This document shows positions 31,914 through 35,462 of a DNA stretch of 64,000 nt, one piece after another. The DNA lies in assembly GCF_008329945.1 (NCBI RefSeq), contig NZ_CP035807.1:2294001-2358000 (forward strand), read 5' to 3'. A program made the position numbers and the translations under genes. The stretch is from Thiospirochaeta perfilievii (lineage in GTDB: Bacteria; Spirochaetota; Spirochaetia; DSM-2461). The notes below the pieces were generated by a model. The model had not been told where the DNA came from, made no database searches, and saw only the letters and a list, made by a program, of their open reading frames with translations. The first letter of the stretch is position 1. The number at the start of each line of letters is the position of its first letter.

Positions 31914-33158
31914 TTAGTTTATTTTAGGAATCTCCTTCCATGATGTGGTATATCTAGGGGATAGCATCTCCCTTTTCATAAACCATTTTGAGTTTTTACT
32001 CTTATTTAGGTTACAGGTAACAGTCCCATTTCCGTATTTTTTATTAATTTCATTTACGCTAGTTTGTATTTTCTTAAACCTGGGGTCCTTTAGGGTAAAA
32101 AGGTCTGGAGTAATCTCCTTTGATGTTCTTAAATCACTTAAAAGTACACTTGTTTTTTTATATAGATACCCCATCTTATATATCTGTTTAATTCCCATGT
32201 CAGCTGCTTTTATAAAGTCTGGGAGATAGTCTGAGTAATCCTCAAGGTCTATGGTTATAGAGTTACTATACTGTTTATCCTTGTTTCTAAATCTATTTGT
32301 AGTTAGATATATAGTTATTGATTTACCCTTTAGATTCTGTCTTGTCATTTTATTAAAAGCGTCGTGAACGTAACTTTTTGTAGCCTCAAGTAAATTCTCT
32401 AAATCTTTAATCGGTTCTCCAAAGCTTTTTGAACTCATAATAGCTCTGTTCTCTTTTACCTCTGTTTCAAACTCAATAGAGGGTCTACCCTCTAACTCCC
32501 ACTTAGTTCTAAGAGAAACAATACTTAGGTGTTTTTTTATCCACCAATCATCTAATTGTATAAAGTCATAGGCTGTAAAAACATTTCGACTACGAAGAAA
32601 AAGTGAAATTTGTCTTCCAATACCCCATACATCCTCTATAGCAGTATCCCTTAGAATATCCTCTCTTATCTCCTCCCTAATCCAATATATTCCTTCTCTA
32701 TTTTTTTTCCCAATATGATTTGCAATCTTAGCCAATGTTTTTGTCTGGGCTAATCCTATAGAAACTGTCATGCCTGTCCACTGTTTTATTTTAAGTCTAA
32801 GATTATAAGCCTCCTCTACAGGGTCAATAAAATCCCAGTTAGCAAAGGCCTCATCTATAGAGTAGATCTCTGTTTTATCTGTAGAGTCCATTATTATACT
32901 CATTATTCTTCTGGATATATCCCCATATAATGCGTAGTTTGAGGAGAATACTTCTACATTGTTCCTTTCAAATAGATCTTTTAATTTAAAAAGAGGTGTG
33001 CCCCGTGGTATCTTTAGCTTTTTAGCTTCGCTGCTCATGGCGACAATGCAACCATCGTTATTAGACAGGACTACCACAGGTCGATCTCTTAAGTCTGGGC
33101 GGAAAATTTTCTCACATGAAGCGTAAAATGAGTTGCAGTCGATTAGGGATATCGGCAC
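31914..33158 (-). CDS. umuC: DNA polymerase V catalytic subunit, Y-family
   Basis: A 414-residue Y-family translesion polymerase. The catalytic acidic residues are intact: Asp7 in LIDCNSFYASCE and Asp102/Glu103 in YSIDEAF. The helix-hairpin region follows (EDVWGIGRQ), then the little-finger domain (SKSFGEP). Length matches E. coli UmuC (422). It shares the TA/ATG junction with umuD (33158), so umuDC is one operon, expressed on DNA damage in other bacteria and here preceded by a palindromic operator. It copies past lesions at the cost of mutations. Confidence 0.95.
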   Translation of the reverse strand: MPISLIDCNSFYASCEKIFRPDLRDRPVVVLSNNDGCIVAMSSEAKKLKIPRGTPLFKLKDLFERNNVEVFSSNYALYGDISRRIMSIIMDSTDKTEIYSIDEAFANWDFIDPVEEAYNLRLKIKQWTGMTVSIGLAQTKTLAKIANHIGKKNREGIYWIREEIREDILRDTAIEDVWGIGRQISLFLRSRNVFTAYDFIQLDDWWIKKHLSIVSLRTKWELEGRPSIEFETEVKENRAIMSSKSFGEPIKDLENLLEATKSYVHDAFNKMTRQNLKGKSITIYLTTNRFRNKDKQYSNSITIDLEDYSDYLPDFIKAADMGIKQIYKMGYLYKKTSVLLSDLRTSKEITPDLFTLKDPRFKKIQTSVNEINKKYGNGTVTCNLNKSKNSKWFMKREMLSPRYTTSWKEIPKIN

Positions 33159-33550
33159 TACTTATCCCCTCTAAAGTTATGTATTGTAAAAGTTACCACC
33201 CCCCAAATTATAAAATCATCACTGGTAGTTATATCAATAATTGGGTAGTTAGGGTTTTCGGGGTATAAAAAAAAGTCGTTCCCTTTTTTTATAAACCTTT
33301 TTACTGTAAATTCTTTATCTAATGATGCTATAATAATATCATTAGATTTTGGAGTGATAGATCTATCTATAATCATAATGTCTCCAGGGAGAATGCCTGC
33401 ATTTATCATAGAGTCACCTTGGGCTCTTACGGCGTAAGTTGCAGCTTTATTGTGTACAAGATATTTATTAAAGTCTAAGTCCGACTCTATATAATCTGTT
33501 GCAGGAGAAGGAAACCCTGCTTTTATGGTGTTCATGAATAGTGGTATCAT
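33158..33550 (-). CDS. umuD: UmuD, self-cleaving LexA-like (S24) accessory subunit of Pol V
   Basis: A 130-residue S24 peptidase-like protein with the Ser-Lys dyad intact (Ser47 in GDSM, Lys84 in FTVKRF). The cleavage region reads KA-GFPSPA, equivalent to the Cys-Gly site of E. coli UmuD, here Ala11-Gly12. The removable arm is therefore only 11 residues, against 24 in E. coli. After RecA-stimulated cleavage the product would join UmuC. The ATG has no Shine-Dalgarno and lies 6 nt after a -10 element. An alternative start at Met6 would leave an even shorter arm. Confidence 0.92.
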   Translation of the reverse strand: MIPLFMNTIKAGFPSPATDYIESDLDFNKYLVHNKAATYAVRAQGDSMINAGILPGDIMIIDRSITPKSNDIIIASLDKEFTVKRFIKKGNDFFLYPENPNYPIIDITTSDDFIIWGVVTFTIHNFRGDK

Positions 33551-33556
33551 ATTTTA

Positions 33557-33574
33557 ACTATACATCTGTATAGT
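33557..33574. promoter_or_regulatory. 18-bp palindromic operator (likely LexA-type SOS box) at umuDC
   Basis: ACTATACA-TC-TGTATAGT has perfect 8-bp arms around a 2-bp centre. It covers the -10 hexamer of the umuD promoter, the expected place for repressor binding. It matches neither the E. coli (CTGT-N8-ACAG) nor the Bacillus (GAAC-N4-GTTC) consensus. Identity of the binder is inferred from context. Confidence 0.65.
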
Positions 33575-33585
33575 AATATTTACAA
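33557..33585 (-). promoter_or_regulatory. umuDC promoter
   Basis: On the minus strand TTGTAA (33580-33585), a 17-bp spacer and TATAGT (33557-33562). The ATG starts 6 nt after the -10, which puts the expected transcription start at or beside the start codon. Confidence 0.6.
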
Positions 33586-33601
33586 TCTGTTTGGAGTTTA
33601 A

Positions 33602-34813
33602 ATGAGTAAAGATATAAGCAAAATAAGAATCCCTCTACTTGTTACAGGTATAGTTCTTTTTTTTATGTTGGCTATAAGTACATTCACCCAGGGAAATTTA
33701 GATGAGGATTATATTGGATTTCAACTCTTTCGCAACAACCTAACTGTAAATAACATTTCTATAAGAGTTGGGGATAAAGATAATTTAGACTATGTTATGA
33801 ACCAATTAGATTTAAGTTTTTATCTCTTTAAGGATTCTGCATTTTTCTACTTATATAGGCTTGTAGATAAGGATTATGACCTAATATTAACCTCCTTAGA
33901 GGAGGAGTGGAAAACCATTTTTTATCAATATTTTAGGTCAGAGGTAATTGATTTTGATATATTGAATAGCAGTTTGGATAAATTATTAGGCTATGTTGAT
34001 ATTGTTAATGGGGTTCTTACAACAGTTGGTCATAATTGGAGAATCTTTTATAAGGTTTTATTAAGTCTAAACTTAGTGATTTTTATTCTTCTACTAATCG
34101 CTTTTTACCATTTAAGCAGTGGGAATTTAAACAATAATTCCAATGGGATAATGAGTGTAAGAAATGCTCTTATTGAGGGACAGGAGCAGGAGAGACTAAG
34201 AATCTCCCTTGAGTTACACGATAAGGTTGCCCAGGATCTATTTGCATGTAGAATGTTAATAAAGGATATATCTTCATCTAGCAAGGATGAGATGCTCCTA
34301 TCGTCAATAAAAAAGTCACTATCCCTATTAGATACTTCAATTAAAGAGGTAAGGGATATGTCCTATACCCTAAGACCTCCTGCCCTTCAAGCTATTGGTT
34401 TAGATAGTGCCATACAGAGTTATGTAGATAATTTTTCTGGAAAAATAGATACCCCTATAAGTTTTAAGGCTGTAGGTTTGGTTAATAAAAATATTGATGA
34501 AACTGTTAGCATAAACCTCTATAGAATACTACAAGAGACACTAAATAATACTGCTAAACACGCCCATGCAGAAAATATTGATATTAAACTAATATATACC
34601 TATCCATATCTCCTTCTAAAAATTGAAGATGATGGTGTTGGTTTTAAATATGTTAAATCTGAGAGTAAGGTTCGTGGGCGAAATAAACTAGGGCTTCCAG
34701 GAATAAAAGAGAGGGTATCTCTTTTAGGTGGAGAGTTAATTATAAATACAGATAAAGGAGAAGGAACTAAAATTCTAATTAAAGTTCCTGTTGTTGGAAA
34801 TGAAAAAGTGTAA
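33602..34813 (+). CDS. Two-component sensor histidine kinase (NarX/DegS-like, HisKA_3)
   Basis: A 403-residue membrane kinase. TM1 (about 10-27) and TM2 (about 146-168) enclose a ~118-residue extracytoplasmic sensor of unknown ligand. The HisKA_3 dimerisation helix carries the phospho-acceptor His in SLELHDKVAQDLF (about residue 206), and the HATPase_c domain shows the N box (NTAKHAHA), DDGVGF and GLPGIKERV (G boxes). Its 3' end overlaps the response regulator start by 14 bp, so the partner is certain by context. SD TTGGAG precedes the ATG. The gene is divergent from umuDC across 51 bp that contain the palindromic operator. Confidence 0.93.
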   Translation: MSKDISKIRIPLLVTGIVLFFMLAISTFTQGNLDEDYIGFQLFRNNLTVNNISIRVGDKDNLDYVMNQLDLSFYLFKDSAFFYLYRLVDKDYDLILTSLEEEWKTIFYQYFRSEVIDFDILNSSLDKLLGYVDIVNGVLTTVGHNWRIFYKVLLSLNLVIFILLLIAFYHLSSGNLNNNSNGIMSVRNALIEGQEQERLRISLELHDKVAQDLFACRMLIKDISSSSKDEMLLSSIKKSLSLLDTSIKEVRDMSYTLRPPALQAIGLDSAIQSYVDNFSGKIDTPISFKAVGLVNKNIDETVSINLYRILQETLNNTAKHAHAENIDIKLIYTYPYLLLKIEDDGVGFKYVKSESKVRGRNKLGLPGIKERVSLLGGELIINTDKGEGTKILIKVPVVGNEKV

Positions 34814-35462
34814 TGTAATGTTAGTGGATGATCATCCTTTTTTAAGAGCAGGTCTCCGGGAAGTTATTAAAGAGAAAGATAATTACGAGGTTGTAGCTGA
34901 AGCTTCAAATATAAGCGAAGCTATGGAAGAGTTTAATGAAAAACTTCCAGATGTTGTCGTTCTAGATATAAACCTAGGAGCAGAGTCAGGATTAGACCTT
35001 ATACAGCCTTTTAAAGATATGAAAAGTGATGTAGGCATCTTAGTTCTAAGTATGTACGAAGATTATGAATACCTAAGAAAAGCCTTTACTGCCGGAGCAA
35101 ACGGTTATGTTGTTAAGGGGTCTGAGACCGATATTGTACTCTCTGGAATATCTGTAGTCTCATCTGGAGAAACATTTTTAGGACCTAAGATGGCAGGAAT
35201 TCTAGTAAAGAGAGTTCTGGAGAAGGGGAATATTCCCTCCTCTGAAGAGGAGAATGATCGTTATGACTCCTTAACGGATAGGGAGCAGCAAATCTTTAGA
35301 CTTCTTGTAAATGGTCTTACATCGAAACAGATTGGTAAAGAGTTATTTATTAGTTCAAAAACTGTAGATAATCATAAGAGTAAAATTATGAGCAAACTAG
35401 AGGTCCACAACTCTGTAGGGCTATTTAGATTTGCTACAAAAATAGGGTTATTGGATAGTTAA
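34800..35462 (+). CDS. NarL/FixJ-family response regulator
   Basis: About 220 residues: a receiver domain with the acidic pair DD near the N-terminus (VMLVDDHPFL), the phospho-acceptor Asp in VVLDINLG, the Thr/Ser position in VLSMYED and a Lys in YVVKGS, then a LuxR-type HTH (LTDREQQIFRLLVNGLTSKQIGKELFIS). I place the start at ATG 34800 (MKKCNVMLVDD) rather than the TTG at 34791, because it begins directly before the first receiver strand. Overlaps the kinase gene and is followed by the RNase gene after 1 bp. Confidence 0.93.
   Translation: MKKCNVMLVDDHPFLRAGLREVIKEKDNYEVVAEASNISEAMEEFNEKLPDVVVLDINLGAESGLDLIQPFKDMKSDVGILVLSMYEDYEYLRKAFTAGANGYVVKGSETDIVLSGISVVSSGETFLGPKMAGILVKRVLEKGNIPSSEEENDRYDSLTDREQQIFRLLVNGLTSKQIGKELFISSKTVDNHKSKIMSKLEVHNSVGLFRFATKIGLLDS

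Follow-up and report, generated by a model that had tools for sequence, protein, structure and literature searches.

An 18-bp palindrome in front of umuD in Thiospirochaeta perfilievii very probably serves as the LexA operator of the SOS response in this bacterium and its spirochaete family. We analyzed a stretch of 64,000 nucleotides (the window) from the 3.70-Mb genome. The palindrome, ACTATACATCTGTATAGT, occupies positions 33557-33574 of the window (no strand assigned; ACTATACAGATGTATAGT as read towards umuD) and is built of two perfect 8-bp arms around a 2-nt spacer (ACTATACA-TC-TGTATAGT). A first-pass annotation had described an 18-bp palindrome with perfect arms that lies across the -10 element of umuD, 7 bp from its ATG. 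The palindrome is present and contains the -10 hexamer TATAGT, but umuD starts at the minus-strand codon 33548-33550, which leaves a gap of 6 nt rather than 7. The proposal that the site is an SOS operator is supported by the recurrence of the motif at damage genes and by the presence of a single two-domain LexA in the genome. The site is palindromic, as fits a LexA dimer, and overlaps the core promoter of umuD. In the model we favor, umuDC would be kept silent by a LexA dimer sitting on the -10 element, and in many relatives on the start codon as well. Upon damage, RecA filaments would trigger LexA self-cleavage and the strong umuD promoter would fire, giving a leaderless mRNA that would begin at the start codon or about one base from it. 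From sequence comparisons, we infer both that the operator is bound by LexA and that umuDC is induced by DNA damage.

umuD (33158-33550, minus strand) codes for a 130-aa S24 peptidase that matches NF007621 at 155.7 bits (cut-off 110). Its S24 domain carries an Ala-Gly cleavage site, a Ser and a Lys, assigned as Ala11-Gly12, Ser47 of the GDSM motif and Lys84 by comparison with E. coli UmuD. umuC (31914-33158, minus strand) codes for a Y-family polymerase of 414 aa with IMS, IMS_C and DUF4113 domains above their Pfam cut-offs; its top NCBIfam match, UmuC NF002955, reached 337.9 bits, under the cut-off of 431. A HisKA_3 histidine kinase gene (33602-34813, plus strand; GGAG 5 nt before the ATG) diverges from umuD and is followed by a gene for a LuxR-type response regulator (34800-35462, plus strand; ATG at 34800, alternative TTG at 34791). 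This arrangement of umuDC and the kinase-regulator pair is kept in three genus members, namely the window and its closest named relatives, L018 and L019 (Spirochaetales bacterium), whose umuD upstream regions are identical to those of the genus-mates G002 and G001.

Only two S24 proteins resembling UmuD are encoded in the genome, UmuD itself and LexA. The LexA protein, the sole one with a LexA_DNA_bind domain, scored 204 bits against TIGR00498 (cut-off 111) and has a helix-turn-helix as well as an S24 protease domain. It aligned over its full length with solved LexA chains, including structure 3jso, which is DNA-bound. It also keeps the LexA motifs Ala-Gly, GDSM and VTLKRF. The lexA gene sits behind a response-regulator gene.

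We asked how much weight the symmetry of the site can bear. With up to 3 mismatches allowed, the window contained 2 matches to the palindrome, a number reached by 27 of 100 shuffled sequences. Perfect palindromes with 8-bp arms and a 2-nt spacer numbered 4 in the 64 kb, where base composition predicts 1.9, so by itself the palindrome is weak evidence; within the 51-bp intergenic region, about 0.001 of this build would be expected. Searching the genome with the exact pattern gave 55 matches per strand versus 35 for a reversed control. Those listed comprised the window site, one site with a single mismatch (L002) and otherwise sites with 3 mismatches. The L002 site lies before an IS30-like gene. 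Taken alone, the exact-pattern result would argue against an SOS box, so we built a consensus from relatives instead. Among the 12 sites listed for the resulting degenerate pattern in the T. perfilievii genome (0-1 mismatch), those of mraZ and recA appeared along with sites within unrelated genes. Apart from mraZ and recA, we set the single-mismatch matches aside, as they fell mostly inside or beside unrelated genes. The significance of the palindrome thus comes from its conservation among relatives and not from its symmetry.

The operator is present upstream of umuD at each of the 30 best umuD loci. A UmuD search of 118 genomes gave matches in 101 at E 0.001, many of which were LexA, and we read the best 30 loci, 20 from the family of the window (f1) and 10 from families f3, f4 and f18 (labels assigned by the tool). 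Each of the 30 has the operator in its 200 bp upstream, at 13.7 to 25.0 bits, and these loci from four families of the class share the consensus ACTWWACnTATGTWWAGT. The scoring matrix was made from the umuD sites of 20 relatives with the window's own left out, which makes the 22.0 bits of the window site an independent score and those of the relatives not; the relatives' genomes are also not mutually independent. No site of at least 18 bits arose in 20 simulated 64-kb sequences, and 1.28 Mb of simulated sequence yielded 3 sites of at least 15 bits, a rate of about 9 for a genome this large. The 35 sites we collected were freed of 7 identical or nearly identical ones, of the L037 and L047 umuD sites and of one self-complementary duplicate, and gave 51 rows. 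A profile of relatives' sites made without the window site ranked that site first genome-wide (E 0.06). This search found few sites because a motif of 18-22 bp yields weak E-values; besides umuD and mraZ, it returned three sites with no repair gene adjoining (L116, L117 and L119). UmuD-like matches in G006, G041, G008 and G076 fell outside the 30 loci, and that of G006 has a pattern match about 30 bp before it. A Flavobacteriaceae record (L020, 50% identity) examined alongside the relatives lacks the operator. An 18-mer identical to the window operator occurs at L101:1501-1518 (genome G011), with no recognized gene after it.

We scored the upstream regions of other damage genes with the same matrix. 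Each region covered 250 bp plus 20, and 464 control windows set thresholds of 8.1 bits (95%) and 12.7 bits (99%), which are raised because the controls include loci of the T. perfilievii genome picked for motif similarity. Within the family, sites passed the 95% and 99% levels in 20 and 15 of 23 dinB regions (24-40 bp upstream of the aligned start), in 16 and 15 of 23 recA regions (-48 to -156) and in 21 and 16 of 24 mraZ regions (-126 to -147). No site above the 95% level was present at recA in 7 of the 23 family genomes or at dinB in 3 of 23. At uvrA, 6 of 24 genomes have a site, all six from genus g4, and the other 18, which served as a negative control, reached at most 6.9 bits (the partial uvrA locus L299 was left out of scoring). 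Recurrence of the motif at other damage genes had been set beforehand as the test of the SOS reading, and it was found in the T. perfilievii genome at recA (15.3 bits), at mraZ (18.7 bits) and weakly at dinB (10.7 bits, at the orthologous place), as well as across the family. The first-pass annotation had named recA, lexA and uvrA as the genes before which to search; recA has the motif, whereas the uvrA upstream region has no site (0.6 bits) and lexA has no clear box. A score of 10.7 bits is not rare and about 9 sites of recA strength are expected by chance. Thus, umuD and mraZ stand out by score, and the case for recA and dinB is made by position and by conservation among orthologs.

Occurrences of the motif without mismatch were found in 18 of 26 family genomes (44 strand-wise matches, versus 6 for the reversed pattern). 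Among the 23 pattern loci read (L092-L114), 8 are at umuD, 5 at dinB and one each at uvrA, mraZ, an integron integrase gene and a radical-SAM repair-type gene (L092:1501-1518, genome G007; its TIGR03916 match is below the cut-off). The remaining 6 adjoin no repair or division gene: 3 lie between a sigma-factor gene and ppdK, and at 3 nothing was recognized. The former, around position 1501 of L093, L097 and L098 in three genus-g4 genomes, are box-like palindromes with further half-matching boxes nearby, flanked by sigma-factor-like and ppdK-like genes. We kept these out of the regulon, as two of the three resemble intrinsic terminators. In genome G020, a box precedes a small ORF (L111:1501-1518) in surroundings that look phage-like, and it possibly reflects SOS control of a prophage gene.

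The mraZ boxes, at C1:700743-700760 in the T. perfilievii genome (L013/L118/L143) and at L144-L166 in relatives, suggest that the cluster of division and cell-wall genes is under damage control. One of them, L163 at 18.5 bits, comes from a 77% complete genome (G012) in which no LexA was found. Outside the family, recA was scored in 45 genomes along with one further family genome; G043 (15.5 bits), G060 (12.9 bits) and G098 (9.4 bits) have a site, and the other 43 stayed below 8.1 bits. The box at recA is therefore largely a trait of the window's family, and the umuD operator is more widely spread than the recA box.

An autoregulatory site at lexA is common among LexA operators but not universal. 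We found no box of at least 9 bits at lexA in 16 family genomes (of 20 loci read), looking about 2.2 kb upstream in 15 and 0.2 kb in one. In the T. perfilievii genome, 11 kb upstream of lexA held a single site of 11.7 bits, inside a gene, and the same distance in two relatives held at best 8.2 bits in one and nothing of at least 8 in the other. Outside the family, 3 of 36 lexA upstream regions (350 bp) pass 8.1 bits: G043 (14.0), G076 (11.5) and G054 (10.4, at the gene start). G043, from family f19, has sites before both recA and lexA (L209 and L247), and its lexA may be self-regulated by the motif. The recognition helix SVKGAYDH of the family LexA also occurs in non-family genomes without a recA box (for example G030, G038, G048 and G110). 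One family genome, G003, codes for a divergent LexA (L070; 32% identity, helix VSHSSVHERI) and has no full UmuD match and no boxes at recA or dinB, which may point to a LexA replacement. We considered whether box presence tracks LexA type and rejected the idea: G003 fits, but a recA box is also missing from most genomes outside the family that have the usual helix.

The operator is merged with the umuD promoter. The promoter, TTGTAA-17-TATAGT on the minus strand, is sigma-70-like. Its -35 hexamer is at 33580-33585 (TTGATA at the same place in two other genus members), and its -10 hexamer at 33557-33562 forms the umuD-proximal end of the operator and is invariant in the genus alignment. The -10 hexamer ends 6 nt before the ATG, and this gap (33551-33556, minus strand) has no Shine-Dalgarno sequence and is the predicted start of a leaderless mRNA. 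Another ATG lies within the operator (33563-33565, minus strand), in frame with umuD. Positions 10-12 of the operator are ATG in 29 of the 30 umuD loci, and in 28 of 30 this ATG is open into umuD, giving proteins that start MYS, MNS, MIS, MFS or MLS. The operator-embedded ATG is likely the umuD start codon in most relatives read. In the window it runs into TAA after three codons (ATG TAT AGT TAA), so that umuD must start at the ATG 15 nt downstream; the -10 element is likewise 15 bp further down, and the two genus-mates have both ATGs open. It appears that in this genus the promoter and start codon moved 15 bp around a fixed operator, and that the stop in the species of the window closed the old start.

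We looked for promoters with at least 4 of 6 matches per hexamer, a spacer of 16-18 nt and a gap of 4-8 nt to the start codon. One was found before a umuD start in 24 of 30 loci, in every case with a spacer of 17-18 nt and a gap of 6 nt, and none of these 24 starts has a Shine-Dalgarno sequence by the motif used. The promoter serves the operator-centered ATG in 21 of them, with a TATACT-like -10, and in three genus-mates, the window included, it serves the downstream ATG with TATAGT. Control ATGs, among them those of the dinB loci, passed in 159 of 9987 cases (1.6%), while each umuD locus offered one to six candidate starts. At dinB, 14 of 23 loci have such a promoter with a gap of 5-7 nt. By eye, uvrA of G010 has a similar promoter close to its start, and the L092 radical-SAM gene (G007) has an operator-embedded ATG (MYS...) in TTGATA-17-TATACT-6-ATG.

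That the operator forms one unit with the promoter, and in many cases with the start codon as well, suggests a umuD message without a leader, and we predict a leaderless mRNA whose transcription starts at the start codon or within about 1 base of it. The outline of the element is TTGACN-17-TATACT-TAACAT-ATG, with the -35 in front. On balance, we think that in four families a fused unit of about 21 bp comprises SOS operator, -10 element and umuD start, with a leaderless mRNA and a start codon that the repressor would cover. At dinB, too, the operator immediately precedes the start in a comparable layout, as it does in one genus each at uvrA and the radical-SAM repair-type gene. If this reading is right, these bacteria would need leaderless translation for SOS translesion synthesis, and their mutagenic stress regulon would be linked to a non-standard route of translation.

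Other explanations of the conserved site were weighed against LexA control. A different dimeric repressor could bind it, for example an unrecognized one that serves translesion polymerases and division genes, with LexA recognizing some other box. We regard this as very unlikely: umuDC, dinB, recA, uvrA, the integron integrase gene and mraZ make up a classic SOS set, the operator has the geometry of the LexA box of E. coli, a UmuD similarity search of the genome gave no S24 protein besides UmuD itself and LexA, and G043, outside the family, carries sites at recA (15.5 bits) as well as lexA (14.0 bits). These observations stand against the lack of a clear box at lexA in the family, the genomes that have the same LexA helix and no recA box, and the mraZ site of G012, all of which would suit another repressor. 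It is scarcely credible that the conserved sequence is merely a promoter -10 and a start codon whose symmetry arose by chance, with no operator at all. Taken alone, the conservation at umuD could be due in part to the -10 and the start codon, since there the left arm holds the -10 TATACT and the right arm the start codon in most relatives read, and palindromes of this kind are not rare in the AT-rich window. The two-armed motif nevertheless stands away from the start codon at recA (48-156 bp upstream) and mraZ (126-147 bp), with both arms conserved, the genus moved promoter and start yet kept the operator, and simulated sequence never scored 18 bits or more.

The first-pass annotation had suggested that the site could influence the divergent histidine kinase, and if so the operator would govern both umuDC and the kinase and response regulator, making the two-component pair an SOS output as well. 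The kinase start is just 27 bp from the operator, the divergent arrangement is kept in three genus members, and the sole promoter-like match on the plus strand (TATACA-16-TACAAT, a weak 9/12) begins inside the operator. This match is at chance level, though, with 2 promoter matches in the region versus a shuffle mean of 1.4, and the two other genus members have TTAAGT or TTTAGT in place of the kinase-facing TATAGT arm. Shared control of the kinase is therefore possible but unsupported, and we think it unlikely.

We compared the operator with LexA boxes from other bacteria. The E. coli box is likewise a dimer palindrome with a geometry of 16-20 bp and the same kind of target genes, and this shared geometry makes the spirochaete site a variant of that box. 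In a hand alignment, E. coli TACTGTATATATATACAGTA and spirochaete TACTATACATATGTATAGTA agree at 16 of 20 positions. CTGT of the E. coli box becomes CTAT or CTTA in the spirochaete site, with C/G at inner positions, and the recognition helix SVKGAYDH of the spirochaete LexA differs from SPNAAEEH in the E. coli LexA chain 7b5g. The site had been called unlike the boxes of E. coli and Bacillus; its sequence does differ, but with the E. coli geometry it represents no new architecture. PMC3108266 gives CTGTatatatatACAG as the LexA box of E. coli and other beta- and gamma-proteobacteria.

Leptospira, from the same phylum, has LexA1 and LexA2 with recA and dinP as targets, and their boxes (TTTGN5CAAA and TTGTAN10TACAA, respectively) differ from the umuD operator in sequence and spacing (PMC3789691). 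That paper cites an earlier report in which no lexA self-regulation was found, whereas it presents binding of LexA1 to the lexA1 promoter itself. We found no LexA box described for spirochaetes other than Leptospira in the open-access literature, including passages of PMC8565304, PMC8072749, PMC4255059, PMC4398503 and PMC518961, and the passages of PMC3323433 considered name Leptospiraceae only. As far as we found, the operator thus appears new in sequence and ordinary in kind, and its fusion with promoter and start appears unusual and conserved. A searchable SOS motif for non-Leptospira spirochaetes would make their damage regulons readable from sequence.

A precedent for a leaderless SOS gene is lexA of Mycobacterium tuberculosis, whose coinciding transcription and translation starts were shown experimentally according to PMC2897130. 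Here, in contrast, the leaderless genes are umuD and dinB and are predicted only, and a further difference from M. tuberculosis lexA is that in most relatives read the operator encloses the start codon. No report of a leaderless umuD was found in the open-access literature that was read. LexA-type sites at the mraZ-headed cluster also have parallels: the E. coli dcw cluster contains SOS boxes (PMC3265435), and a gut-metagenome mraZ site is bound by B. subtilis LexA (PMC3998124). The spirochaete mraZ site differs in having its own motif, 126-147 bp upstream in 21 of 24 family genomes.

The SOS motif appears to mark an integron integrase gene in a spirochaete in addition to mraZ. In genome G004, the box ACTTAACATTAGTATAGT (L102:104-121) lies 20 bp before an integron integrase ORF that matches TIGR02249 above its cut-off. 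By eye, the box falls between a -35 (TTAACA) and a -10 (TATACT). PMC3108266 reports that only the beta/gamma-proteobacterial LexA motif was found at integron integrases, and counts spirochaetes as one of the groups in which a divergent LexA motif accounts for the loss of integrase control. The L102 box, from one genome, bears on this account and suggests that some spirochaetes keep control of the integrase via their own motif.
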